DNA of 64,000 nt from Paucibacter sp. B2R-40 (GTDB lineage Bacteria > Pseudomonadota > Gammaproteobacteria > Burkholderiales > Burkholderiaceae_C). Below, in pieces: positions 49,910-64,000 of the stretch. Within the stretch, counting starts at the first letter, position 1; each line of letters opens with the position of its first letter. The stretch spans positions 620,001-684,000 of the forward strand of contig NZ_JAJIRP010000001.1 of NCBI RefSeq assembly GCF_025717555.1, in the 5' to 3' direction. The position numbers and the translations under genes were made by a program. The notes below the pieces were generated by a model. It saw only the letters and a list, made by a program, of their open reading frames with translations. It did not search any database and was not told the origin of the DNA.

Positions 49910-50902
49910 TCACATTACTTTGAACGGCGCCGCACGGCGCCGCACGGCGCCCAGCAAGCCTAAGCCGGCCAGCAGCAAGGCGTAGCTTTGCGGCTCTGGC
50001 ACCGTGGCGGCGAGTTGGTAGTGGTAGAGATTGACGTGCAGGTTCTGATTCGTCAGCGACTGGTCGCTGCGGTCCGGGTCCACGATCAGCTCCACATACA
50101 TGTCCAGCGCGCCGTTGGCGTTTTGGCGCATCGCGATGCCTTCGATCTCCAGATCACCGTCGGGCTTGGGGATGCGCAGCACTTCCTCGAGATGGCCGGT
50201 CAGCAGATTGCTGCGGTAGATGCCTTGATCGGCATTGTCGGAGGCCATATAGAGCCAGTCGCCCACCACCTTGGCGCCTTGAATGTTCTTGAGCGAACTG
50301 TCCATCTGGATGGTGTGGCTGAAGCTCCAATCGCTCAAGTTGTAAACGTTGAGCGTGTTGCCATTGCGCCATTCCTTGCCATAACCATAGCCCCGTGCGG
50401 CATCTACGGCGACCCAGCTGGCGAGGTCGCCATTGGGGTTGGCGGGGGTGCCGGCCAGCGTGAAGCTCTTGCCGGTGTAGCTGAGGTCCGCCGCATTGAA
50501 CAGCGCCACATGGGGCTGTTTGTAGCCATTGGTGCTGTCCAGCGAGGCATAGATGATGCCGCCTTGGACGTCGATGTCGCCGATATGGTTGAGGCCTTGG
50601 GCAAACAAGTCGCTCGGGATGCCCGGCGTCAGGCCGCCGCTGCCGATATTGGAGTTGCGCTGCAGCGAATTGAAGTTGGCGTCGGTACGCTCCAGTCCAT
50701 ATTGCCAGGAGAACACAAACTCATTGCCGTTGACCGCGATCCCTTGGCTACGGTAGATGCCGGTGAAGCTGCCCGGGGGCTGATGCAGATAGAAGGCCTG
50801 CACATCGGCCAGCTGCCAGTCTTGGGCGGCGATTGCCGGGCTCAAGGCGGTGGTGAGAGCCAAGCCGAGGGCGGCACGTTTGAATAGATGAGTGGTTTGC
50901 AT
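49910..50902 (-). CDS. PEP-CTERM protein (predicted beta-propeller-like)
   Basis: A 330-residue secreted protein. The signal peptide is AALGLALTTALSPAIAA, the body is repetitive and Asn/Asp-rich (IYRSQGIAVNGNEFVFSW, GDIDVQGGIIYASLDSTNGYKQ, GDWLYMASDNADQGIYRSN), which suggests a propeller. The end, VPEPQSYALLLAGLGLLGAV followed by RRRAAPFKVM, is a PEP-CTERM signal (301-330). It lies 138 bp below the chitinase operon on the same strand. Export and anchoring by an exosortase outside the window is predicted. Confidence 0.85.
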   Translation of the reverse strand: MQTTHLFKRAALGLALTTALSPAIAAQDWQLADVQAFYLHQPPGSFTGIYRSQGIAVNGNEFVFSWQYGLERTDANFNSLQRNSNIGSGGLTPGIPSDLFAQGLNHIGDIDVQGGIIYASLDSTNGYKQPHVALFNAADLSYTGKSFTLAGTPANPNGDLASWVAVDAARGYGYGKEWRNGNTLNVYNLSDWSFSHTIQMDSSLKNIQGAKVVGDWLYMASDNADQGIYRSNLLTGHLEEVLRIPKPDGDLEIEGIAMRQNANGALDMYVELIVDPDRSDQSLTNQNLHVNLYHYQLAATVPEPQSYALLLAGLGLLGAVRRRAAPFKVM

Positions 50903-51040
50903 GGAAAGAATCCGGTTGAATGCTCAGTCAGCATTCGCACCGTAAACCCTGCAAATGACGATGCCGAGCCTGTCCAAGCGCTCGTCATAGTTCTTGTGGC
51001 TCAGACCGGGCGCATAGCGACCGGCCTGTTGCTCACCGGC

Positions 51041-53080
51041 TCACTTCAGGCCGTCGCTGATCGCCTTCAGCAGCGTGGAGTTGGCGTCGTCACCGCTGAA
51101 CTCCCAGAAGAAGGCGCCGCCCAGGTTCTTGCTCTTCAGATAGTTCATCTTCTCGGTGATCTGCACCGGGGTGTCAAAACTCCAGAAGGTGGTGCCGTTG
51201 TAGATCCACTGCGCACGCGAGGCCGCGTCGACGAAGCTCGGGTAGCCCAAGGTCTTGAGGATGCGGTAGTCCTCGATGCCTTTCTCGTACTTGCCCGGCG
51301 CGCCGACGCCCGGCTGGTAGAGGCCGTTGCCGACATTGGGCACATTGGTCCAGCCGCGACCGTAGAAACCGATGCCCAGATTGAGCTTTTTGGCCGGCAC
51401 GCCGCGGTCCAGGAAGGCCTGGATCGCGTCATTGCTGTTGTACAGGCGCACATCGCCGGTCGAAGGGTCGGCCGGCGAGGCGTAAAGCGGCGAATGGAAA
51501 CCGGTCGTGGGCTCGAACGCACCGTGGAAGTCATAGGTCATCACATTGATGAAATCCAGCGAGGGATGGAACGCTGCGGGGTCCATCACGCGGATCTTGT
51601 CGATGCCGGCCGGTGCGGCAATCGTCAAGAGCAGGCCAGGCTTGGCGGCGTCGAGTTGCTTGCGGAATTCGGCCAGCAAGGCGGTGAAATTGGCCTTGTC
51701 CTCGGGCGCGCCGCAGCTCAGGCCGCAGGCGACCGGGTATTCCCAGTCGATGTCGATGCCGTCGAATACACCGGTCGCCGCGCCCGGGCCGCCGGCGTAA
51801 TCCGTTACCGGCAAGTCACCCTTGATGTAGGCATCAACGCAAGACTTGACGAAAGCGACGCGGTTCTCGGGCCGCGCTGCGCTGGAGAAGCCGCGCGAAT
51901 AGGTCCAGCCACCCAGCGAGATCAAGACCTTGAGCTTCGGGTATTTGGCCTTGAGCTTCTTGATTTGCCCCCAGCTGCCGCGCAGCTTCTGGTCCCACAG
52001 ATCGGCCACGCCGTCGACGCTTTGCGCCGCTTGAATCGACTTGGTGTAGTCGGCAAAGGCGTCGCCGCCGACGCCGGTGCTCTCGTTGACCGGCACCGTC
52101 AAGCCGACCTCGCAGCGGTTATTGCGCACATTGCCGAAGGCGTAGTTGATATGCGTCAGCCTTGCCGCAGCACCGCCGGCGTCAATGTCTTTGACATTGA
52201 AGTTACGGTCGTAAATACCCCATTGCGCAAAATAGCCCAGCACGTTCTTGGCGCCGCTCACATCCGCCTTGGCGGTGCGCACGCTCAACACGGGCGATGC
52301 GGGCGAGGCGCCGGCCTGGTTGAAGGCGACGACACTGAAGTTGTAGGCGGTGTCGGCCGCGAGGCTGTTGACGGTGGCGCTGGTGCTGCTGGTCTGCGCG
52401 ACCTGTGTGGCCGCTTGCTGCACACGGTATTGCACCGTGCAGTTGGGCGCTGCGGCGGATGCCGTCCAGCTCAGGGCGACGCTGGCGCTGGTCTGCGAGG
52501 GGGATGTGAGGCCGGTCGGTGCGGCCGGCGCCGAGGCGCAGGCGCCGCTGGCGGTGCTGGTCAGCAAAGCGCTGCTGGCGGCCGACACATTGCCGGCCTT
52601 GTCACGTGCCCGCACTGCATAGCTGTAGGCGGTGCCGGCGGTCAGGCCGCTGTCCACCAGGCTGGTGGCGGTGGGCGAAGCGACCACGCTGCCGCCGCGC
52701 AGCACGTCGTAGCCGGCCACGCCGCTGCCGGCGTCGGTCGAGGCGCTCCAGCTCAGCGTGATGCTGCTGGTGGTGGCGCCGCTAGCGCTCAGGCCGGCGG
52801 GCACCGTGGGCGGCGTGGTGTCGACCTGCACGCCATCGCAGGCGCCCAGCGGCTTCCAGACATCCCATTGGCCGGCATTGCTCGCCGGCGTGTTGTTCTG
52901 CGTCCACCATTTGGCCTGGAAGGCCTGTTTGGATTGCTGCACGTTCTGGCCGCCGGTGTAGACGCCTTGGGCGGTCCATTCCGGCAAGCCGCTGCAGTCA
53001 AAAGCGTAGGCGACGGGGCTGGCCAAACCGGCCGCGATCACGGCGGCGAGGCTGAGCAGGCTGCGTTGAGGTGTTTTCAT
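51041..53080 (-). CDS. GH18 chitinase with CBM5/12 and two FN3 domains
   Basis: A 679-residue exported enzyme. Signal peptide to about A25, then a CBM5/12 chitin-binding domain (CSGLPEW, VYTGGQNVQ, KWWTQNN, WDVWKPLGAC). Two fibronectin III domains follow (about 85-265: PAGLSASGATTSSITLSW, PTGLTSPSQTSASVALSW), then a GH18 barrel with the catalytic motif DGIDIDWE (D440-E447, proton donor E447). It hydrolyses chitin with retention. ATG 53080 follows AGGAGA. It starts 31 bp after the next GH18 gene and is in one operon. Confidence 0.95.
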   Translation of the reverse strand: MKTPQRSLLSLAAVIAAGLASPVAYAFDCSGLPEWTAQGVYTGGQNVQQSKQAFQAKWWTQNNTPASNAGQWDVWKPLGACDGVQVDTTPPTVPAGLSASGATTSSITLSWSASTDAGSGVAGYDVLRGGSVVASPTATSLVDSGLTAGTAYSYAVRARDKAGNVSAASSALLTSTASGACASAPAAPTGLTSPSQTSASVALSWTASAAAPNCTVQYRVQQAATQVAQTSSTSATVNSLAADTAYNFSVVAFNQAGASPASPVLSVRTAKADVSGAKNVLGYFAQWGIYDRNFNVKDIDAGGAAARLTHINYAFGNVRNNRCEVGLTVPVNESTGVGGDAFADYTKSIQAAQSVDGVADLWDQKLRGSWGQIKKLKAKYPKLKVLISLGGWTYSRGFSSAARPENRVAFVKSCVDAYIKGDLPVTDYAGGPGAATGVFDGIDIDWEYPVACGLSCGAPEDKANFTALLAEFRKQLDAAKPGLLLTIAAPAGIDKIRVMDPAAFHPSLDFINVMTYDFHGAFEPTTGFHSPLYASPADPSTGDVRLYNSNDAIQAFLDRGVPAKKLNLGIGFYGRGWTNVPNVGNGLYQPGVGAPGKYEKGIEDYRILKTLGYPSFVDAASRAQWIYNGTTFWSFDTPVQITEKMNYLKSKNLGGAFFWEFSGDDANSTLLKAISDGLK

Positions 53081-53111
53081 CTGAGTTCTCCTGTGTGCAT
53101 CTAGTTGAGGT

Positions 53112-56009
53112 TCAGTTCTTGCGCAGCGCTGTTGGCGCGGCCTTGGCGGCTGCGGCTGCCGCCGCTGCGACGGGCGCCAAGTCGGCGCGCCGCGCTTCTT
53201 GCTTGAGGCTGTAGGACTTGCCACCAAAGCTGACGATCCAGTTGCTGGGCATGGGCATAGGCAGGTAGTAGTTCAGCGTGATCGTGACGCTCTGGCCCGG
53301 TGCCAGGGTCTGCCAGGCCGGCAGCTTGAAGGCGGCGCGGTGGAACTCGTTGGTGAGGCCGCCGATGTTGTTGCCCGCCGTGTTGGCGCCGCTTTGAATC
53401 ACCTTGAGGCCAAAGCCGGTCTGGTCGGTCAGCGTGGCGGGAATGGCGGTCGGGATATCAAAGCTGAAGTCTGTACCGCCGGGCAGGGTCTGGCTGCTGG
53501 TATTGGTCAGCGTCAGCTTGGGGTTGATCGGGTAGTTGGCGTCACCGAGCGCGAAGCCGGCGATGCTGAAGCCAATGTCCAGGCTCTCGGCCGGCAGCGC
53601 CGCGTTGCTCAAGCGGTTGCCATAGGCGCTGGCGGTCTTGAACTTGTTGTACAGCAGCGAGGTCAGGGTATTGCCCATGAAATACTCGCCGCGCGCAGCG
53701 TCCCAGCCATAGTCGCCGGCCAGCTCCCAGAACATCACGCCGCCAATGCCGCGCTCGGCCGCGTACTGGGCCTTGAGCGCCAGGCTTTGCTCGGTCTCGG
53801 TGGAGAGGAAGACGCGTTTTTGCGCGTTCCACAACCAGGGCGCCACCAGCTTGGCATCGAAGAAGCTGGCATAGCTGCCGGTCAGCTGATCGGCCGTGTT
53901 AGTGGCCGGGTTCAGACCGTAGGCGGCGAGGTAGCTGCCGGGGCGGCCCGCCGCCAGATTCATCGTGTGCCAGAGCGGGTTGGAGCCGGCCGGGACTTCC
54001 TTGCTTGATACGTCCAGGTCATGCCAGAGGTTGTCGATGCCGATCGCGCCGGCGCCGCATTTCTGAACCGTGCCGCCGCCGGTGCCGGCTGGGCACTTGG
54101 TCTGGTCGGCTTGCGCGGCTTGGCCCCACAGGCCGTTGGTGCCGCCCACCACGTCCTTGAAGCCACGGGTGTAATAAGGCACGCCGATATTGATACGGCC
54201 GGCCGGCATAGACCCACGGAAGTAGTGATAAGCCCAATCGGTGTTCAGGTAGCCGATATTGGCGTACTGGGCGCTGGTGTAGTAGCTCCAGGCGGCCAAT
54301 TCGGCGTCCTTGCCGTCGTCAAACAGCGCGGCGTTCGGCCCGACGAACTGGTTCCAGGCGCCGTGCAGGTCATAACTCATGATGTTGACGTAGTCCAGGT
54401 ACTGGGTGACCTGGTAGTTCTCCATGCCGCGCAACAAATAGGCGGAAGAAGGCGCGGCCACCGTCAGCAGGTAATGGCGTGCGTCGGCCTGGCCGGCGGC
54501 ATCGAGCTTGGCGCGCAGCGTTTGCATCAGCACGGCAAAGTTCTTGGTCAGCGTGGCGCGGCGGGCGTTGGAGATCGCGAAGTCATCCGGGTTGCCGGCG
54601 TCCTTCATGCTGGTGGCGTATTCGTAGTCGATGTCCACGCCGTTGAAGCCGTATTGGCGCAGGAAGGCGACGGCCGAGTCGGCAAAGGTGTTGATGCCGG
54701 CGACATTGGCGCTGCCGTCGGCATTGGTCGTCATGGTGTAGAAGCCGCCATTGGCGACGCGCTTGCCGGCGTCGTCAAAATAGCCGCCGGTCTCGGCCCA
54801 GCCACCGATAGACACCATGGTCTTGACCTGTGGATAGAGCTTTTTGTACTTGTTCAGCAGGTTGAAGTGGCCTTTGTAAGGCAGGGCCGGGTCCAGCTCG
54901 GCGCCGGCTACACCGGGCCAGCTGATGCCGGTGGCCGGGTTGTTCGGGTCGGCGGCGTTGCCGATCGAGACCTTGTTGGCGCCGTCGATATGGGCAAAGG
55001 CATAGTTGATGTGGGTCAGCTGCGCCCAGGGGATCTGGCTGGCGAGGTAGGCCGGCTGGCCGTTCTTGCCGGTGCGCCAGCTGGTGAAGTAACCGATGAT
55101 GCGGCGCGGTTTGTCGCTGCCCATGATCTCGCGGCCTTGGCTGTCATAGACCTTGCAATAGGCGGGTGCGGTGCCGGGGCTGGTGATCAAGCCCTCGGGG
55201 CGGCAGCGCTCGTCGCCGGCCGGCGGCAGGCCGCTGACGGTCACGCGCACGGCGGCGCTGTCGGTGCTGGCGCCCTTGTCATCGGTGGCGCGGGCGACGA
55301 TGTCGTTGACGCCGGCGCGGGCCGTCCAGCTTAAAGAATAGGGGGCGGTGCTGTCTTCGCCGACCAGCGCGCCGTTGACGAAGAAGGCGACCTTGGCGAC
55401 GCTGCCATCGCTATCGGCCGCATTGGCACTGAGCGTGACGGCGTCGCCGGCGGCCGGGGTAGCGCTGGCGCCGGGCGCGGTCAGCGCGATGGTGGGCGGC
55501 TTGTTGGTGGACGTGGCGCTGACGGTCACTTGAGCTGTCTTGCTGGCGGTGGCACCCTTGTTGTCGGTAACCGTCAAGCTAATCGTGTAGGTCCCCGCAG
55601 CCGCGTAAGTGCGGCTGGCGCTGACGCCGCTGGCAGAAGAGCCGTCGCCGAAGTTCCAGGCGTAGGTGGCGATGCTGCCGTCGGGGTCGCTGGAACCGGC
55701 ACCGTTGACGCTGGCGGTCAGCGCGCTGACGCTGCTGCTGAAGGCGGCCACCGGCGGCTGGTTGACGACCGCGCCGTCACAGGCGCCGAGCGGCTTCCAG
55801 ACATCCCATTGGCCTGAGTTGGTCGCGGGCGTATTGTTCTGCGTCCACCATTTGGCCTGGTAGGCCTGTTTGTTTTGTTGGACGATGCCGCCGCCCACAT
55901 AGGCGGTGGCGGCCGACCATTCGGTCACGCCGGCGCAGTTATAGGCCAGCGCGGGGTTGCCGGCGGCCATGGCGCCAAGCGCCAGGCTGATTGAGAGGGA
56001 GAGTCTCAT
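53112..56009 (-). CDS. GH18 chitinase with CBM5/12, PKD and Ig-like domains
   Basis: A 965-residue exported enzyme: signal peptide, CBM5/12 (VYVGGGIVQ-like start, KWWTQNN, GQWDVWKPLGAC), a PKD domain (about 75-160, YAWNFGDGSSASGVSASRTY), an Ig-like Big-type domain (PTIALTAPGASATPAAGD). The GH18 barrel has GVDIDYE with catalytic E463. The C-terminus (about 810-965) is a further beta-sandwich with NPKLTLTNTSSQTLPGGTDF, probably a second carbohydrate binder. Chitin is the likely substrate. ATG 56009 follows AAGGA. The CBM is nearly identical to its neighbour's. Confidence 0.95.
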   Translation of the reverse strand: MRLSLSISLALGAMAAGNPALAYNCAGVTEWSAATAYVGGGIVQQNKQAYQAKWWTQNNTPATNSGQWDVWKPLGACDGAVVNQPPVAAFSSSVSALTASVNGAGSSDPDGSIATYAWNFGDGSSASGVSASRTYAAAGTYTISLTVTDNKGATASKTAQVTVSATSTNKPPTIALTAPGASATPAAGDAVTLSANAADSDGSVAKVAFFVNGALVGEDSTAPYSLSWTARAGVNDIVARATDDKGASTDSAAVRVTVSGLPPAGDERCRPEGLITSPGTAPAYCKVYDSQGREIMGSDKPRRIIGYFTSWRTGKNGQPAYLASQIPWAQLTHINYAFAHIDGANKVSIGNAADPNNPATGISWPGVAGAELDPALPYKGHFNLLNKYKKLYPQVKTMVSIGGWAETGGYFDDAGKRVANGGFYTMTTNADGSANVAGINTFADSAVAFLRQYGFNGVDIDYEYATSMKDAGNPDDFAISNARRATLTKNFAVLMQTLRAKLDAAGQADARHYLLTVAAPSSAYLLRGMENYQVTQYLDYVNIMSYDLHGAWNQFVGPNAALFDDGKDAELAAWSYYTSAQYANIGYLNTDWAYHYFRGSMPAGRINIGVPYYTRGFKDVVGGTNGLWGQAAQADQTKCPAGTGGGTVQKCGAGAIGIDNLWHDLDVSSKEVPAGSNPLWHTMNLAAGRPGSYLAAYGLNPATNTADQLTGSYASFFDAKLVAPWLWNAQKRVFLSTETEQSLALKAQYAAERGIGGVMFWELAGDYGWDAARGEYFMGNTLTSLLYNKFKTASAYGNRLSNAALPAESLDIGFSIAGFALGDANYPINPKLTLTNTSSQTLPGGTDFSFDIPTAIPATLTDQTGFGLKVIQSGANTAGNNIGGLTNEFHRAAFKLPAWQTLAPGQSVTITLNYYLPMPMPSNWIVSFGGKSYSLKQEARRADLAPVAAAAAAAAKAAPTALRKN

Positions 56010-56122
56010 GGTGTAAATCCTTGATCTTGAAAAGGAGCAGGGTGCACAAAGCCAGACCCTGCGCTTGCGCGCGGGCCAGGGAGGGGATTGCGGGAGGTTT
56101 TGGTGAGCGCTAGCGCTTGGGC

Positions 56123-57844
56123 CTAGGGTTTGATCACGACGTCAAAGTACTTCTGCACGCAGCTTTGGTAATCGCCGCTCTTGAGGGCCGAGTAGGCGGT
56201 CTGGTAGCCGACCAATTTGCAAGCAAAGGCCTTGCCCTCGGGCATGTCCGGGTAGTAGGCCCAGTCTTGATCCCAGTAGATATCTAGTGCGCCGGCGCCG
56301 CCGACGACGAACTGTTTCTGGTTGCCGCAGCCCAGCTCTTCGTTGGCGCCAATCGGCACGCCCAAGGCTGCAGCATGCTGGCGGTAGTAGGCGATGCGGT
56401 TGACCGATTGCGGCTTCTCTGCCCCCTGGCCGCATTCGATGCCGCCGTTGATGACGTTGGTGGTGGCGCCAAAGCCGGGCTTGATGCCGGCGGCGGTGTC
56501 CACCGCATTGGGCTTCCAGCTGCCGTCCACCACATGCAGCATGCTGGGCTTGGGCGAGGCGGGGTAGGCAAAAAAGAACACGGCGGAGGCGAGGTTCAGC
56601 CAGGTATCGGCCACTTGTTCGGGCTTGTCAAGAAGAGTCCGCACATCGCCGAACATCGCGTCGGAGAACGGGCCGTAGTTGAAGCTATAGGACAGCTGCT
56701 TGGCGCCGCGGCCGAAGTACTGCTTGTAGCGGCCCTGTGCGTCTTTGCCGCAGGGCCAGACCTGGCCCTGCCAAGTCGTGGGCAGGCATTCATTGTTGTA
56801 AGGGCAGCCATAGCTGTCTTCGCTGCAGCCGGCTTCGCGCACGAAGTAGAGCGCCTGGCGCCATTCAGGCGTGGCGTTATTGCGATCGTGTGCGCCGGTC
56901 TCCTGGGTGAAGTGCGCGAACATCGTGGCCAGGGTTTTGCGACAGATCGCCTCGGCATCACGGCCGTCGCTGTAGTCTGCGCAAACGCCGGAGAACTTGG
57001 CGATCGCCTGCAGCAGTCCGGTATAGGTGTAGCTCGGGTTGCGCAGCGGGAACAGATACTCCCACTGGCTGGCCGGCAAAATGCGCTCAACCCGTTTGAC
57101 ATTGGGCGGGTTGGCCGTGGCACCCGGTGCCACGGCCGTGACGACGCTATTGGGCCGGGTGGCAATCGAGGCCTTGACCGAGGCGAACAAGGGCGTATTG
57201 GTCAGATTGGCTTCGGCGGCCAGCACATCGGCCTGGCGCAACAGGTATTTGCCGGTGGCGGGATCTTTGACCACAGCGACCAGGCTCACGCTTTGCGCCT
57301 TGGCGCTGGTGGCGCCCTTGTTGTCGGTGACCGTCAAGGTAACGGCATAGGTACCTGGTTTGGCATAGCTGTGGCTGAGCTTGGACCCTGTGCCGCTGCT
57401 GGCGTCGCCGAAGTCCCAGCGCCAGGCGCTCACCTGCCCGTCCGGGTCGCTGGAGGCGGAGCCGTCAAACGCGACGCTGAGGCGATCTGCCGTGCTGCTG
57501 AATGCGGCCAGCGGGGCTTTGTTGCCGGCCGTCCCGCCACCTGTGCCGCCGCCTGCGTCGCAGGCGCCGAGCGACTTCCAGACTCCTCCTGGTGCGGAGT
57601 TAGTAGCCGGCGGCTGCGCTTGTGTCCACCAATTGGCGCTATAGGCCTGACCTGCGTCTTGCACCTGCTTGCCGCCGGTGTAGACGCTGCTGGCCGCCCA
57701 AGGCGGCAGCGTGCTGCAGTCGACGGCCCAGGCCGGTGCGCTAGCAGCCGCCATCAGGAGCAGGGCCGCCAAACTCTTGTTGCCGTCGCCCCAAGGCTTG
57801 CGGCCCAAGCCTGCGGGACGGTGTGTACTTTTTTGCTTGATCAT
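56123..57844 (-). CDS. GH19 chitinase with CBM5/12 and PKD domains
   Basis: A 573-residue exported enzyme. The N-terminus has a long leader, then LAALLLMAAASAPAWA as signal. A CBM5/12 follows (VYTGGKQVQ, NWWTQAQPP, WKSLGACD) and a PKD domain (WRWDFGDASSGTGSKLSHSY). The GH19 domain (about 205-560) has FAHFTQETGAHD with the catalytic acid E315, YFGRGAKQLSYSFNYGPFS and ATNVINGGIECG. Family GH19 cleaves chitin with inversion, complementing GH18. ATG 57844 follows TGGAG. It is the first gene of the chitinase operon. Confidence 0.95.
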   Translation of the reverse strand: MIKQKSTHRPAGLGRKPWGDGNKSLAALLLMAAASAPAWAVDCSTLPPWAASSVYTGGKQVQDAGQAYSANWWTQAQPPATNSAPGGVWKSLGACDAGGGTGGGTAGNKAPLAAFSSTADRLSVAFDGSASSDPDGQVSAWRWDFGDASSGTGSKLSHSYAKPGTYAVTLTVTDNKGATSAKAQSVSLVAVVKDPATGKYLLRQADVLAAEANLTNTPLFASVKASIATRPNSVVTAVAPGATANPPNVKRVERILPASQWEYLFPLRNPSYTYTGLLQAIAKFSGVCADYSDGRDAEAICRKTLATMFAHFTQETGAHDRNNATPEWRQALYFVREAGCSEDSYGCPYNNECLPTTWQGQVWPCGKDAQGRYKQYFGRGAKQLSYSFNYGPFSDAMFGDVRTLLDKPEQVADTWLNLASAVFFFAYPASPKPSMLHVVDGSWKPNAVDTAAGIKPGFGATTNVINGGIECGQGAEKPQSVNRIAYYRQHAAALGVPIGANEELGCGNQKQFVVGGAGALDIYWDQDWAYYPDMPEGKAFACKLVGYQTAYSALKSGDYQSCVQKYFDVVIKP

Positions 57845-58725
57845 GAGTTCAACTCCAGGGCTGAATCGGTACGACGCCTCAGGCGCCTGTGGGGTTCACA
57901 AAACTGCCCCGTTTGGACTGCGACCGGGGCCGGGCGGCAAGCGGTACTAATTCACAAACGACCGCTTATGGGCTCGTAATGTAGATACCAATTAGTCAAC
58001 AGGTATGGATGTAAACCCCTATAGAGCCGGTAACGGTCTGTAAGTGGTGATACCAGTTCAAGGCCTGTTTGGCGCATATGGGTTTCCCGCTTCGGTCGAA
58101 ATTTGGTCGGTCCTGGACCGCGAATAAACCCGTTTTGTTTGCGATCAAATCGCGAATTAGCGGCGCATCAAGAAGGACCCGTTTGGCGCAGATGCTAGGC
58201 AGGCCCAAGGGGTGCCGCCATGTCCGCTGCGGCCACCGATTTGACATTTGCGGACAAACAGAAAATTGGCGCGGATGCTAGGTGTGATGGGCTTTCTGGC
58301 GCTGCTGAACGGTTGGCAAGCTGCTGCAGGCTGCGCCTGCCAGCACGCGCCGGTGGCAATGGAATACAGCGTTAGTCAAAGAGGGTAGTCCGGCAACTTC
58401 CTGCGGCCCGATCGGCCGGCAATGGCGTCTTGATCGAACCCAGCCGGCGCAACAAATTCGCTGGAAAAAGCTAACGTTTTATTCAGATGGATTTGGCGAT
58501 TGATCCGCTGCCTGTCGGGGCAAACCCACCCTGTAAGGTCTTACAGGATGGGAAATTGCGCATGGTGGCGCGCCCGATTCGGCCTGATCATTCGCCCCTT
58601 TCAATGAGTACGAATGCTTGCGGTTCGTCCGGGCTTGGCTGGCCGGGGTGGAGCAGGACATTCGCAAAGCGCTGAGACCGGCCCTCGGGAGCTGTGAGTA
58701 CGGCGCACTAGAACAGGGATGGGAC
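57845..58725. other. Divergent control region between chitinase operon and lipoprotein gene
   Basis: No convincing gene in 881 bp. It carries several dyads and repeats: AAGCGGT...ACCGCTT (57939-57967), direct repeats GATACCARTT (57984-57993 and 58049-58058), the palindrome CGGTCC-T-GGACCG (58108-58120), and three copies of TTGGCGCRKATG (58069, 58183, 58266; the last two extend to GCTAGG). GATACCAATT inverted is a half-site reminiscent of GntR-type GlcNAc regulators. A tiny frame 58275-58388 gives a hydrophobic 37-residue peptide; I do not call it a gene. Confidence 0.5.
58108..58120. promoter_or_regulatory. Perfect 13-bp palindrome CGGTCC-T-GGACCG
   Basis: A 6-1-6 perfect inverted repeat in the divergent region, about 265 bp upstream of the GH19 gene and 600 bp upstream of the lipoprotein gene. 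Operator candidate only; no matching regulator is encoded nearby. Confidence 0.4.
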
Positions 58726-60372
58726 ATGCACAAGGTAGTCGGCTGCGCGAGGCGTCGGGGCTCGCGACTGCCCTTTTCGCGGTTTTGGATGGTGATGCTG
58801 CTCGCCACTTTGTTGAGTGCATGCGGCGGTGGCGGTGGGGCGAGTGGCGGCACAGATGCGTCGCCGACGGCGCCTTCAACGCCGCAGCCGCCGTCGGCCC
58901 CCGTTCCGCCCCTGAGCGCTGCGTCTGCTGTCACGCCGACCAACGCATCCGGTCAGGCCTTGATCAGCCTGAGCAGCGATGGTGACGATTGGATTGGGGG
59001 CGGCGCCAACTACAGCTACGACAGCAGCAACGCTGCGATTCGTGTCGGCGTCAACGGCACGCATTTGAGCATCCAAGTTGACGGCAAAGAGAGTTGGCAC
59101 GCGGACTTTCAATTGCCTCGTGCATTGGGTCAGTTGCAAACAGGGACTTACAACGGTTTGCCAAGGTATGCCTTGCGGACCGATGAGGGCGGCGGGCTGG
59201 AATGGATCGGGCAGGGGCGAGCCTGCAGTGTGTTCAATGGCAATGTGGTCGTCGAGGCAGTGAGCTACCTGGCGGGCGTACTCACATCCATCGATTTGAG
59301 ATTCGAGCAGTACTGCAACTCATCGAACGCGGCCTTGCGGGGCCAGATTCATATCGGCCCGCAGGCAATGGCGCGTGTCGCTGTGCCCCAGAATCCGATG
59401 CCCGAGCAGCCGGTGGTCGCTTTGAAGAGCGATATCGCCGACCCCATCGGTGGAGGGCTTGTGTATGGCTATGACAGCAGCAACGCCGTGATCAAGATCA
59501 GCGCTGTAGGCGCAAAGCTCAGCGTCAGTGTCAATGGCGATCAGCAATGGAGTGGCGATTTTCAACTTCCCGGCGAGGGCGAGGTGCTGGCGGTGGGAAG
59601 TTACGCTGGCTTGAGCCGCTATCCGTTTCAGGCTGATGCTGCGGGCGCGATGTCTTGGTTTGGGGAGGGCCGTGGCTGCAACACCATCGCCGCCAGCATG
59701 GTGGTGCACAGCGTTCTCTATGAGGCCGGCGTGCTGAAGGCGGTGGACATGAGCTTCGAGCAGCATTGCGACGGCATGCCTGCAGCGCTCAAGGGAGAGA
59801 TCCACTGGGACAGCAGCAAGACGACGGTGCCGGCTGGGCCAGCGACACAAATGCCGGCGGGCCTGTGGACCGCGCCGGCTGATGCCATGCCAGCGACAGG
59901 CAATGCGATCTACCTGTTCAGCGAGCCCGGCGACTATGTCGGCAAAGGCTGGACTTGGCTGGTCGGGGCGGCCGTCGGTGACAGCGGCGGCGGAGGGGGA
60001 GGCGGAGGCTCAAGTTCCGGTACGGCGAAGGTGTCTATTTCGGAGTCAAAGGGTCTGCTGCAGATCGCGCTGACGGGTGATGTGAGCTGGACCGGGGAGT
60101 TCAAGGCGATGAATGGGGTCAGCCACCTGCAGCCGGGCTATTACGGCATTCTCAAACGTTACCCTTTCCACAATCCCAGCAGAGGCGGCCTGGATTGGAA
60201 TATGGACGGCCACGGCTGCGGTGCTTTGAATGGCTGGTTCGCGGTAGATGCCATCAGCTATTCAGGGGAGCAACTGGAGTCGATCGACATGCGCTTCACC
60301 CAGTACTGTGATGGCTCTATCGCGCCGCTGCGCGGACGCATTCGCTGGAGCCAGGGAAAGCCCACACTTTGA
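58726..60372 (+). CDS. Triple-repeat lipoprotein, apparently undescribed domain
   Basis: A 548-residue lipoprotein: basic N-terminus, hydrophobic core and lipobox LLSAC (C33), then a Gly/Pro/Ser linker. Three tandem repeats follow at residues 79-210, 230-361 and 395-541, each reading S-D, G-x-G, YDSSNA (first two), W...F-x-L, G-x-Y-x-G-L/I-x-R-Y, G-x-G-x-x-C, and ID/VDMxFxQYC. The two cysteines of each repeat are exactly 30 residues apart (167/197, 318/348, 498/528). The third repeat carries a poly-Gly insertion. ATG 58726 follows AGGGATGG. I know no name for the domain. Confidence 0.85.
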   Translation: MHKVVGCARRRGSRLPFSRFWMVMLLATLLSACGGGGGASGGTDASPTAPSTPQPPSAPVPPLSAASAVTPTNASGQALISLSSDGDDWIGGGANYSYDSSNAAIRVGVNGTHLSIQVDGKESWHADFQLPRALGQLQTGTYNGLPRYALRTDEGGGLEWIGQGRACSVFNGNVVVEAVSYLAGVLTSIDLRFEQYCNSSNAALRGQIHIGPQAMARVAVPQNPMPEQPVVALKSDIADPIGGGLVYGYDSSNAVIKISAVGAKLSVSVNGDQQWSGDFQLPGEGEVLAVGSYAGLSRYPFQADAAGAMSWFGEGRGCNTIAASMVVHSVLYEAGVLKAVDMSFEQHCDGMPAALKGEIHWDSSKTTVPAGPATQMPAGLWTAPADAMPATGNAIYLFSEPGDYVGKGWTWLVGAAVGDSGGGGGGGGSSSGTAKVSISESKGLLQIALTGDVSWTGEFKAMNGVSHLQPGYYGILKRYPFHNPSRGGLDWNMDGHGCGALNGWFAVDAISYSGEQLESIDMRFTQYCDGSIAPLRGRIRWSQGKPTL

Positions 60373-61026
60373 GCTTGTCAACGGCCTGCCGCGACGGATG
60401 ACGCTGGACGCCGATGGGCTCGTCCGTCAACTTGACGGCCTGGGCGCCCACAGGCCGGGCTTCGATCACTTCACCGACAACAATGTCTGGCGCATCAATG
60501 ATCCGGTCTAGGGGCGCTCTGCACAAAGCAGGCCGGTCCGTGCTCGCGCGGTCTCGGGCCGCCTGTTGCGCCGCAGCTTTCTTCAAGGCTCAAGGCGCTT
60601 GGCTTCAAGCTGCACCTTGCATCCCTTCCCGATCCGAACTACAGACCTTGCCCCAATATCTGCAGGTCGCCCCCTGGCAAGCGCGGGTTCAACCTGATTT
60701 TCCGGGGCATGGACCCGCCACACACTAACGAGCAATTCAAATGACTGCGAAAGGCAGGCTCGGTACTTGTGTCACATGGATCCCGACAGGCCAGTGGGCT
60801 GAATCTTGAGCGAAATGCGCGGCGCGATGTGCCGGCGGTTGGTTTGACGCTGCACTCCAGGCATGGCGAACGTGCCGGAGTCAGGTCGCTTTGGCCGCAG
60901 CGCTTAGCCTGATGGCGCGCGAAACTTGCTCAAGGCTGCTTGATGGAGGTCCGCGACGGCTCGCCCAGCGTGCATACTTGGCTCCGGCTGATCCAGCAAG
61001 GCTTGGCTGAGACAAGGGCGCAGCAG
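60373..61026. other. Intergenic region with an orphan coding-like fragment
   Basis: Directly at the stop of the lipoprotein gene, frame 60361-60511 reads as a credible protein end: HFELVNGLPRRMTLDADGLV, then FDHFTDNNVWRINDPV-stop. It has no own start and looks like a remnant of another gene, perhaps of an Rhs-like or YD-repeat type. The rest (60512-61026) shows no gene to me; it should hold the promoter of the propeller sensor. Confidence 0.4.
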
Positions 61027-64000
61027 ATGGTCGTCTGTATCCGGTGGTGTTTGCCTTCACTGAATTTCATCCGCAGCGGCTGGGTGTGGCTTGGCCCGTT
61101 TGGTATTTTTGGCAGATTTGGCCTTGCCTTGCTCCCGATGGGCCTGCTGGCCTCTTGCCTTCTCTTGGTTGCCCCGCCGTCTGTCGCGCAGGCGCTCAAC
61201 CGGCTGCACTTCACGCAGCTGGGTCTGGATGAGGGCTTGCCCAGCCCCTATGTGCTGAGCAGCTTGCAAGACAGCCAGGGGCTGATTTGGCTCGGCACGA
61301 CCAACGGTTTGGCCCGTTATGACGGTCGCTTGGTGAGAAGCTTCCCGAGCGACCCGCTGCGCGCCAATACGCTCAGCAGCCCGGTGATTCAGGTCCTGCT
61401 GGAGGATAGGCAGCGCAAGCTCATCTGGGTCGGCAGCCACGCCGGCATGGACAGGCTGGATTTGCGCACCGAGCTGGTCAAGCGCCTGCGCGTGCCGTCC
61501 GAACTGAATCAAAGAGAGCGGCGGGTGCGTGCCATCACGCCGGCGGCGGGCGGGCGCTTGTGGGTCGCTTTTTTGGGCGGGCTTTATTTGTTCGACCCCG
61601 ATACGGAACAGTTCACGGTGTGGCCGATTGAGCCGCTGGCGCCGGCAAAGTCCGCGGATGGCAGCGGACGCGTCAGCACGGCCATCAATGTGATGATTTC
61701 CGATGGCCGGGAAGGTGTGTGGGTGTCGCGCGCCGACAAGGTCGTGCATATCGCTGCCAATTCCAAGGGGAAGGGCAAGGGCAAGGGCAAGGCCCAGGGC
61801 GAAGGCTATGCCATAGAGCACAGCTTCAGCAGCACGCAGGCCCCACGGCCCGGCCCGCTCAGCGCTGAAGGGGCAGCGGTCAGTCAGCTGGCGTTTGACG
61901 CCAGCGGGCGCTTGTGGGTGGGCTTGACTGGCGGGCTGCAGACCTGGCAGGTGGAGCCGGGCGCGGTGCGCCCCGATCCCCTCGCGCAATCGCTGCAACT
62001 GCCACTGCAATCGGTACACGCGCTGCTCTTGGCGCAGGACAAATCGATGTGGATAGGGATGGGGGACATCGCTGTGCTGCACCGCTGGCGCGAAGGCGCC
62101 TCAGGGGTGGAGTCGTTCCGGCGCTTGCCGGGTGTCGGCGGCAGCTTGTCGAGCGACACCATTGCCTCCTTGATGCAGGACCGCGCGGGCGTTTTATGGG
62201 TCGGCTCCACCGATGTGGGCGTGAACCTGGTGGACCTGAACAGGCAAGGCTTCAGCAATTACCTGAGCATTCCGGGTGATTCGCAAAGCTTGTCATCGCC
62301 GGTGGTGATGGCGACGCTGCTCGATGGCGCCGAGCATGCTTGGGTGGGCACTTACGGCGGCGGGCTGAACCATTTGCATCTGGCCAGCGGCAAGGTGCGA
62401 CAGATTGCGCTGAAGGACATGCCGATCAGCCATGTCAAGGCCTTGGCGCCGGCGGCGAAAGGCAAGATCTGGGTCGGCGGGGACCGCGGCCTGGTGCTGT
62501 TCGATCCCGCGCTTGGGCGCAGCCAGCGGGTCGACTTTGAGAATTTGGGCGGCAATCGGGTGTCGGTCAGTGCCTTGCTGCCTGACGAAGCTCGTGACGG
62601 CGCCAGCAACGGCGGGCTGTGGATCAGCACTGCGGTCGGCCTGTACCGCATGAATGCTGATTTAGGCTTGCGACGCTATCAAGCCGACGGCAAGCAGGCC
62701 GGTTCGTTGGTCCACTCGGTCCTGGACAGCTTGCTGCGTGATCGTGATGGGCGTCTATGGGTCGGCAGCAAGGCCGGTTTGCAGTATTGGGATGCCGCCA
62801 GCGACAGCTTTTCAGCTCCCATCTTGGTGGAGAACGCCGTGCCGGGGCAGGTCAGGCCGTCCGTGCATGGCATGCGCCAGGATGCGCAAGGCCGTATCTG
62901 GCTGGCCACCGATCAAGGGCTGTTTGAATTGCTCTCGGCCCAGGCCGGCAAGACCTGGATGCTGAAATCATGGCGCGCCATCCCCGGCATGCCGGCCGGC
63001 AGATTCGATGCCATCCAAGATGCCAACAACGGCGAGATCTGGTTGGGCAGTGAGCAAGGCTTGACGCGGGTGCGGCCGGCGCAGCAGCAGGCCCGGTTTT
63101 TCGGCGGGCGAGGCACTTTTGAGCGGGGCTTCAATTTTGGCGCGGCCACGCGTGGCCCCGATGGCAGCCTGTTCTTCGGCGGCCCCGGCCTGCTGCGATT
63201 CAAGCCCGAGCAGCTGCGTGACAACCCGACCGCGCCGACCGTGGTCTTGAGTGATTTGCTGGTGCTCAATCGCTCCTTGTTGAACGATGGCGGCGCAACA
63301 TCGGGCACCTTGCCGGGCATGCCCGCCAGCAGCTCGGCCAGCACGGTGAGCCTGAGTTTGGCGGACCTGGGTATTGACGGGCCGCTGCATCTGGCTAAAT
63401 CCATCACCCTGAGCCCGCGCGAAACGATGGTGAGTTTTGAGTTGGCGGCGCTGCATTTTGATCGCGTCAAGCTGAATCGTTATGCATGGATGCTGGAGGG
63501 CTTTGATCGCGATTGGATTTACGGCCAGGGGGCGCTGGGTTTGGCCACTTACACCAATCTGGATGCCGGCCATTACCGGCTGCGCGTCAAGGCCGCCAAC
63601 CCGGACGGTATCTGGAGCGAGCCGGCGACGCTGCTGGATGTCGAGGTCTTGCCGCCGTTCTGGCGCACCTGGTGGTGGCGTTCGGGCGTGGCGCTGCTGG
63701 CTGCCTTGGCCTTGCTGGGAGCCTTCCGGCTGCGCACGCGCAGCTTGCAGCAGACCCAGCAAGCGCTCGAGCAAGAGGTGGCAACGCGCACGCGCCAATT
63801 GGCCGAAGAAAAGCAAGTTGCCCTGGGCCAGCGCGAGGTGGCCGAGAAAGCCCGGCGCGATATCGGGCTGCTCGGCGAGATCGGCCGACAGATCACCGCC
63901 TCTTTGGATATAGAGGCGATTCAGCAAACGCTCTACAAACATGTGCAAGACCTGGTCGATGCCTCGGTATTTGGTGTCGGTCTGCTCGACAAGCGCGAAC
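61027..64000 (+). CDS. Beta-propeller two-component-type sensor with Y_Y_Y and GAF domains (3' end outside window)
   Basis: Over 990 residues within the window. A signal/anchor region is followed by many regulator-propeller blades of form DSQGLIWLGTTNGL, DGRLWVGSKAGL, AQGRIWLATDQGL. A Y_Y_Y domain (NRYAWMLEGFDRDWIYG, GHYRLRVKAANPDG) precedes a transmembrane segment (WRSGVALLAALALLGAFRL) and a coiled coil. A GAF domain begins (GLLGEIGRQITASLDIEAI) at the window end. An HK or GGDEF output is expected after it. ATG 61027 is chosen with AAGG upstream; ATG 61138 is the alternative. A (GGCAAG)n tract at about 61764-61792 codes a Gly-Lys repeat. Confidence 0.88.
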   Translation, partial: MVVCIRWCLPSLNFIRSGWVWLGPFGIFGRFGLALLPMGLLASCLLLVAPPSVAQALNRLHFTQLGLDEGLPSPYVLSSLQDSQGLIWLGTTNGLARYDGRLVRSFPSDPLRANTLSSPVIQVLLEDRQRKLIWVGSHAGMDRLDLRTELVKRLRVPSELNQRERRVRAITPAAGGRLWVAFLGGLYLFDPDTEQFTVWPIEPLAPAKSADGSGRVSTAINVMISDGREGVWVSRADKVVHIAANSKGKGKGKGKAQGEGYAIEHSFSSTQAPRPGPLSAEGAAVSQLAFDASGRLWVGLTGGLQTWQVEPGAVRPDPLAQSLQLPLQSVHALLLAQDKSMWIGMGDIAVLHRWREGASGVESFRRLPGVGGSLSSDTIASLMQDRAGVLWVGSTDVGVNLVDLNRQGFSNYLSIPGDSQSLSSPVVMATLLDGAEHAWVGTYGGGLNHLHLASGKVRQIALKDMPISHVKALAPAAKGKIWVGGDRGLVLFDPALGRSQRVDFENLGGNRVSVSALLPDEARDGASNGGLWISTAVGLYRMNADLGLRRYQADGKQAGSLVHSVLDSLLRDRDGRLWVGSKAGLQYWDAASDSFSAPILVENAVPGQVRPSVHGMRQDAQGRIWLATDQGLFELLSAQAGKTWMLKSWRAIPGMPAGRFDAIQDANNGEIWLGSEQGLTRVRPAQQQARFFGGRGTFERGFNFGAATRGPDGSLFFGGPGLLRFKPEQLRDNPTAPTVVLSDLLVLNRSLLNDGGATSGTLPGMPASSSASTVSLSLADLGIDGPLHLAKSITLSPRETMVSFELAALHFDRVKLNRYAWMLEGFDRDWIYGQGALGLATYTNLDAGHYRLRVKAANPDGIWSEPATLLDVEVLPPFWRTWWWRSGVALLAALALLGAFRLRTRSLQQTQQALEQEVATRTRQLAEEKQVALGQREVAEKARRDIGLLGEIGRQITASLDIEAIQQTLYKHVQDLVDASVFGVGLLDKRE

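Follow-up and report, generated by a model that had tools for sequence, protein, structure and literature searches.

Related systems and layout of the protein

Several described groups of proteins resemble the lipoprotein considered here in part. TbpB-type outer-membrane surface lipoproteins are lipidated and carry beta-rich lobes on a flexible anchor, a plan that recalls the present protein. However, the structures of this type that were matched (9clm_B and 9nhq_B) reach TM scores of at most 0.14 and identities of at most 9%, and so show no homology. Lipocalin and calycin barrels are small secreted proteins made of sequential beta-strands, and no other kind was as common as these meander barrels in the 50 PDB matches that were listed for the model of the single domain. 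Carbohydrate-binding module (CBM) families, such as the CBM5/12 of a neighboring chitinase, comprise small secreted beta modules that often stand in tandem beside other domains. Small disulfide-stabilized beta domains on lipoproteins can also serve as inhibitors or decoys.

The window is a 64,000-nucleotide stretch of the genome of Paucibacter sp. B2R-40. The lipoprotein gene and its parts are as follows:

58726..60372, + strand: lipoprotein gene including its stop codon; 548 aa, three copies of the domain (ORF reading)
58726..58821, + strand: signal peptide, residues 1-32, whose last residues are the lipobox LSA (read from the translation)
58822..58824, + strand: lipobox Cys 33, followed by Gly (read from the translation)
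58825..58962, + strand: stalk rich in Gly, Ser, Pro, and Thr, residues 34-79 (translation)
58963..59355, + strand: domain copy r1, Cys codons at 59224-59226 and 59314-59316 (E 2.7e-40, with a profile that contains the three window copies themselves)
59416..59811, + strand: domain copy r2, Cys codons at 59677-59679 and 59767-59769 (E 1.1e-43, same profile; AlphaFold pLDDT 94.8)
59812..59904, + strand: linker between r2 and r3, type GP..P.GLW.AP..A.PA.GN (sequence and three-copy model)
59905..60351, + strand: domain copy r3, Cys codons at 60217-60219 and 60307-60309 (E 4.1e-41, same profile)
59977..60018, + strand: r3 insert rich in Gly and Ser that follows predicted strand 2 and precedes strand 3; disorder predicted (three-copy model)

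The protein has cysteines at residues 7, 33, 167, 197, 318, 348, 498, and 528. Direct reading of the sequence agrees with the initial annotation that it is a lipoprotein, as the lipobox LSAC ends in Cys 33 (by eye, LLSAC followed by GGGGG). A residue other than Asp directly after the lipidated cysteine points to the outer membrane. In the modeled part of the stalk, residues 67-73 have a pLDDT below 50. The two linkers differ. The one between r1 and r2 is without the LW part and is predicted to be disordered, whereas the r2-r3 linker is of a type common to other tandem arrays and is perhaps packed, with a pLDDT of about 78-91 in the three-copy model.

The repeated domain and its cysteine pair

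The initial annotation described one unit occurring three times, r1 and r2 being the closest, with a poly-Gly insert in r3, and all of this is borne out. Smith-Waterman local alignment gave scores of 327 (r1/r2), 217 (r1/r3), and 224 (r2/r3), whereas 500 shuffles per pair averaged 30-34 and never exceeded 63. Identity is 46% between r1 and r2, which both contain YDSSNA, and 42% and 34% for the other two pairs. The insert in r3 is present and predicted to be disordered. All three copies span the full domain of about 135 aa with its conserved elements (GD.IG.G, W, Y, GRGCN, and F.Q.C). Because the window copies sit in their own profile, independent support for the family comes from other genomes, which were matched both by the protein and by profiles.

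Each window pair of cysteines is exactly 30 residues apart, as had been noted. The strictness claimed for this spacing does not hold for the family, in which it ranges from 28 to 34, with 141 of the 150 two-cysteine copies at 30 (54 copies) or 31 (87). The further proposal of one disulfide per module gains support from the way in which the cysteines are lost. In a recount that took in all domain loci and merged identical cores, 166 distinct copies spanned both sites: 159 have both cysteines, seven have neither, and none has a single one. Seven incomplete rows (L078, which ends at a contig edge, five rows of one broken gene in G090, and L170) were kept out of the 166. The first count, of 158 unique copies, gave 150 with both, six with neither, two truncated, and none with one; a third cysteine in the aligned columns was absent from 146 of these 150 two-cysteine copies and present in four. 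As the motifs of the pattern scan contained Cys, the copies derived from it carry the cysteines partly by construction, and the loci found by the genome-wide profile alone therefore form a fairer subset, with 47 copies having both, five neither, and none one.

The copies without both cysteines are the third copy of an array in G283 (L040), the second copies of L122 and L084, two L042 genes, L031, and L164, and represent about six separate loss events. Had the copies been independent, the probability of six such losses coinciding by chance in the first count would be about 6e-11, but independence does not hold. This joint retention or loss of the two cysteines speaks strongly for a single disulfide in each copy. 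In the single-domain model, Cys 92 lies three residues before the strand 95-107 and Cys 122 ends the strand 110-122. Since a two-residue turn joins these strands, the strand positions make it likely that the two cysteines come close together where the hairpin is open.

Distribution and architectures of the family

The unit is a real and widespread domain of about 135 aa that belongs to putatively secreted proteins. A first search used the full protein against 59 genomes, its own included, and matched 22 of them, mostly through the signal and stalk. Two clear matches to the repeat region were found in other genomes, G057 (35% identity) and G050 (31%), and both proteins contain the domain. The matches in congeners were rejected as homologues: they extend over no more than residues 5-138, which take in the signal, the Gly stalk, and at best the beginning of r1, and the domain profile has no match in those genomes. 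In the protein's own genome the profile finds the three window copies alone, and a second match of the full protein (query 23-78) covers signal and stalk only.

A profile built on the three window copies and those of G057 and G050, five in all, had matches in 10 of the 300 order genomes and in 3 of 299 in a phylum sample, the own genome being included in both. A pattern-plus-tblastn scan, in which each species was represented by one genome, yielded 145 stretches with the pattern; 126 of them encode relatives. The best 80 of these 126 were retained as 80 loci, including L049, from which the first query row was taken (100% identity), and hold 82 ORFs with 131 domain matches. Twelve phylum labels are represented, most often Actinomycetota (36) and Pseudomonadota (23), with one locus unlabeled; phyla with a single locus may reflect misbinned contigs, many sources being metagenome-assembled genomes. 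With a larger profile of 98 copies (A6), matches were found in 15 of 399 order, 12 of 299 family, and 1 of 18 genus genomes, own genome included, several of the family and order matches being partial or marginal (e.g., G298, E 6.3e-4).

One consensus-like copy used as query matched 5 of 72,556 plasmid records and 1 of 50,697 phage records. The four annotated plasmid matches are each called 'hypothetical protein'. The phage record (L181; MT837699.1, 1440-1838, 41% identity) is an unverified 6.4-kb 'Bacteriophage sp.' scaffold from human feces, which may be a bacterial fragment. In viral contigs, 22 pattern matches yielded no relatives.

The copy number in the 81 proteins is one in 52, two in 16, three in eight, four in three, and five in two, so that 29 have 2-5 copies, L088 being counted through a doubtful second match. 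Some single-copy proteins are small (L074, 184 aa; L100, 167 aa). Partner domains include DUF11, fn3, PKD, Calx-beta, BACON, FG-GAP, and M13 peptidase, and partners of this sort are extracellular types. Individual loci combine the domain with a beta-helix and Ig/cadherin (L127), fn3 and BACON (L102), FG-GAP (L049), DUF5018/DUF6242 (L098), fn3 (L110), PEP-CTERM (L042), DUF11 (L117), or DUF11 with M13 peptidase (L122). By crude patterns, L068 has a PEP-CTERM-like tail and L099 an LPXTG-like motif.

Three loci show unusual arrangements. In a Methylococcaceae protein (L122:1454-5713), the M13 peptidase is fused to three domain copies, the second of which is without cysteines. L042, in G283, consists of two neighboring PEP-CTERM genes whose domains are without both cysteines, and the same genome encodes a five-copy protein. 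The gene L036/L149 of G090 is broken by an in-frame TGA and is probably a decayed copy.

Domain libraries and predicted fold

The domain is apparently unnamed in the libraries searched, in line with the initial annotation, and a strong match to a named family, which would have spoken against that view, did not appear. The window protein matched no Pfam family at E of 10 or below, and no curated Pfam or NCBIfam cut-off was reached over the domain. At E of 1 or below, the 98 single copies matched 12 Pfam families, with a best E of 0.043; only one family was matched by more than a single copy, namely by three, and it reached 0.12. For the 81 full proteins no Pfam family occurs in more than five and the leaders are partner domains (25 of 43 families listed), and no NCBIfam family occurs in more than four (25 of 26 listed). 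The closest orthologue found, from G802, has no Pfam match at E 0.01, and neither Pfam nor NCBIfam has a family over the domain stretch of the G057 and G050 proteins. In PHROGs, 11 families were each matched by 1 of the 98 copies, the best being an unnamed family with unknown function (E 8.8e-4). A PDB profile search gave a best E of 0.3, Rfam gave nothing at gathering score within 50000-64000, and PADLOC gave nothing for the window protein and one weak match for L126. In the open-access literature, text searches by motif returned papers judged unrelated, and a search by topic returned none.

Some apparent matches were discarded. The NCBIfam matches of the window protein are all weak, and the two best, 'fusolisin' and 'invert_tail', cover the signal and stalk alone. 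Among the 60 of 122 PDB sequence matches listed, those to scFv align query residues of about 392-456, a segment that contains the Gly-rich insert, with the Gly/Ser linkers of scFv.

AlphaFold predicted r2 (98 sequences) with a mean pLDDT of 94.8 and a pTM of 0.89 as a domain of ten beta-strands. The three-copy model (18 sequences; pLDDT 83.4, pTM 0.58) has ten strands in every copy, and the relative arrangement of r1-r3 in it is uncertain. Foldseek returned 1278 PDB matches for the single domain at E of 10 or below and none at 0.001. The top-ranked match listed is an adenovirus fiber domain solved with N-acetylglucosamine (E 0.015, TM 0.18). A shared lipocalin fold would be expected above a TM of about 0.5, but the highest TM among the 50 of 1278 matches listed was 0.41; lipocalins appear at E 0.077 or worse and the calycin-like Ycf58 at 0.033, with identities of at most 14%. 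Three-copy matches below E 0.001 (the sliding clamps 3k4x and 6fvn_C) are artefacts, with TM of 0.09-0.12 and an rmsd above 20 A, and BFVD gave nothing at E 0.001. The structural check proposed in the initial annotation thus came out in part: a confident all-beta fold is predicted, but no carbohydrate-binding fold was matched at a meaningful score among the matches listed.

A family with 12 phylum labels that is absent from Pfam, NCBIfam, and PHROGs, and whose confidently predicted structure has no good PDB match among those listed, represents a real annotation gap. As the domain occurs in peptidase, PEP-CTERM, and FG-GAP proteins as well as in lipoproteins, a single solved structure with a single ligand would shed light on many of them.

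The tandem-array lipoproteins

The window protein belongs to a subfamily of tandem-array lipoproteins with linkers of the type GPVNPPPAGLW.P..GATP.SGNYVYL. Its closest orthologue found, G802 (L177:5431-7044, 537 aa), has three copies and 51% identity over 472 columns. Like the window protein, this orthologue and the arrays L070, L116, L126, L120, L114, L117, L098, and L121 have a lipobox-like site, 2-5 copies, and linkers of the P..LW.P..GATP.SGNYVYL type. These eight arrays are from Massilia, Pseudoduganella, Variovorax, Undibacterium, Rhizobacter, Scleromatobacter, a Nitrospirae MAG, and a Gemmatimonadaceae MAG. A crude lipobox pattern is present in 13 of 13 tandem-array relatives, which were chosen by linker type, and in 22 of the 81 proteins overall, some surely by chance. 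The arrays differ in copy number, and some have added N-terminal parts (DUF11 in L117, DUF5018/DUF6242 in L098). The window protein is set apart from the others by its short r1-r2 linker and the Gly insert in r3, and its gene by the chitinase neighbors, which the relatives are without.

A tree of 67 copies has 64 inner branches, 26 of them open, and its bootstrap had not yet converged. In it, r3 of the window protein and the third copy of the G802 orthologue form a pair (100/99). Window r1 and r2 fall together with the first two copies of this orthologue at 87/89, below the program's mark, and the group stands at an open fork near the first-position copies of other arrays.

Proposed role and alternatives

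We regard it as reasonably probable that the protein is a lipoprotein of the outer membrane on which an unclassified domain, ligand-binding or adhesive, is displayed as a tandem array. A lipidated N-terminal cysteine would hold it in what is presumably the outer membrane, and a flexible Gly/Pro-rich stalk would carry the three copies of about 135 residues. Each copy would be an independently folded, ten-strand all-beta domain in which one disulfide brackets the long C-terminal hairpin, and the copies would stand in a row, r1 and r2 joined flexibly and r2 and r3 by a linker that may pack. An up-and-down strand order would bring the GDYIGxG, GxGRGCNT, and CEG loops and the disulfide to one end of the domain. 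This conserved end may be a recognition surface, and tandem copies could provide higher avidity to a binding or adhesion module displayed at the surface or in the periplasm.

Conservation gives this proposal a possible location. If strict strand alternation is presumed, loops 10-19, 36-37, 55-64, 88-94, and 123-127 of the single-domain model lie at one end, and their mean information is 2.35 bits, against 1.70 for the loops of the other end and 2.07 for the strands; loop 88-94 (GxGRGCNT) is the highest at 3.63. This modest gap points to a functional end without proving one, and the conserved Gly-rich loops may be structural, the strands being nearly as conserved. A more general picture, which we offer only tentatively, is of an unclassified beta fold present across a dozen phyla, whose disulfide end binds one ligand class and which Burkholderiales would use in outer-membrane avidity arrays of 2-5 copies.

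The copies may instead be structural spacers, that is, stalk segments that project something else or a surface layer and have no ligand of their own. Arrays in which regular linkers join 2-5 copies in tandem, and the many Gly among the conserved residues, would suit such a function. We consider it unlikely, as copies reach the C-terminus in the arrays listed (L070, L116, L126, L117, L110, L105, L119, and L121, with at most nine residues after the last copy), more than half of the proteins (52 of 81) have a single copy, small ones among them, and polar D, R, N, and Q are among the most conserved residues.

Somewhat less likely again is the role suggested in the initial annotation, a surface lipoprotein that handles chitin or oligosaccharides in partnership with the adjacent chitinases. 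Upstream, on the - strand, lie three chitinase genes (fn3+GH18, CBM5/12+PKD+GH18+ChiC, and PKD+GH19), from which the lipoprotein gene is divergent, and a Reg_prop/Y_Y_Y sensor gene lies on its other side, downstream on the + strand. Tandem beta modules on a stalk may also resemble binding arrays, and the fiber domain with N-acetylglucosamine at Foldseek rank 1 would fit, yet its scores are too weak. However, the adjacency is not conserved in the orthologue, in related loci, or in the genus. The G802 gene sits downstream of ligA (NAD-dependent DNA ligase). Against 87 related loci (1.26 Mb, with flanks of up to 8 kb that are shorter on short contigs), tblastn with the three chitinases detected no convincing chitinase and gave one weak match (E 4e-4), in which query residues 111-197 are the PKD region. 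No chitin-binding CBM was matched by sequence or fold, and none of the 98 copies has a Pfam CBM match.

The genus gives a similar result. The GH19 protein is retained in congeners G001, G003, G008, and G011 with 82-92% identity, whereas the domain occurs in 1 of 18 genus genomes, the window's own; the profile search found it in none of the 17 congeners, of which G002 and G014 are less than 80% complete. In G001 the site is empty, GH19 and the sensor gene being direct neighbors with no gene of the lipoprotein kind between them, and in G003 a kinase-AAA-GAF-GGDEF gene stands there. The slot therefore varies within the genus, with the lipoprotein gene as one accessory occupant of it. The chitinase adjacency looks like a local accident and not a functional clue, and function should not be read from one neighboring operon.

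An inhibitor or decoy lipoprotein (for lysozyme, a protease, or a toxin), with one target molecule bound per copy, is improbable. Lipoprotein-borne inhibitors of this build exist, and 1 of the 98 copies matches a chagasin-like Pfam inhibitor family, but at chance level (E 0.043), and no inhibitor family among those listed was matched significantly. Moreover, a neighbor search at 19 loci (ORFs of at least 110 aa, E 1e-12, clusters in at least three loci) gave no conserved family beyond the domain genes as target or partner, except by eye a LysR-like cluster in three loci. Two of its three clusters (13 and 6 loci) were rejected, as they overlap domain genes in other frames. An enzymatic domain is very improbable: the conserved polar set D, R, N, and Q/H lies mostly near one end, but the window copies vary there (RACS and QYCN in r1, GHGCG and QYCD in r3), and the listed fold matches include none to an enzyme with a meaningful score.

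The variable slot and the upstream DNA

Two features outside the coding sequence belong to the slot:

58560..60677, no strand: stretch missing from congener G001, approximate (BLAST and weaker gapped alignments)
58530..58547, no strand: 18-nt near-palindrome CCTGTAAGGTCTTACAGG at the left edge of the G001 gap, with a counterpart in the G001 intergenic region

BLAST matches to G001 stop at 58072 and restart at 61185, which places the gap within 58073-61184. Gapped local alignments extend the matches to about 58560 and 60678, with a slight overlap in G001; the left edge scores 73 against a shuffle maximum of 50 and the right edge 87 against 72 (200 shuffles). In G003 (L204:4396-9531), the gene between GH19 and the sensor gene encodes a 1711-aa Pkinase-AAA-GAF-GGDEF protein. 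The sensor gene itself (60913-64000) is open at the window end and has a 1412-aa frame in the genome; it adjoins GH19 in G001 and is about 6 kb away from it in G003.

The region between the divergent genes had been called repeat-rich. The divergent arrangement is as described, but the region has no tandem array, just three imperfect repeat pairs of 17-18 nt. Outside its two local copies, the upstream repeat TTTGGCGCRNATGCTAGG has no occurrence in the genome with fewer than two mismatches. Within 58064-58282, TTGGCGCAGATGCTAGG occurs twice in near-identical form at a distance of 83 nt, with a partial third copy, and the rest of the genome has none as good. The sole exact match of CCTGTNAGNNCTNACAGG in the genome is the CCTGTAAGGTCTTACAGG site, and four other congeners besides G001 have one site each. 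The CCTGTAAGGTCTTACAGG near-palindrome is a possible operator.
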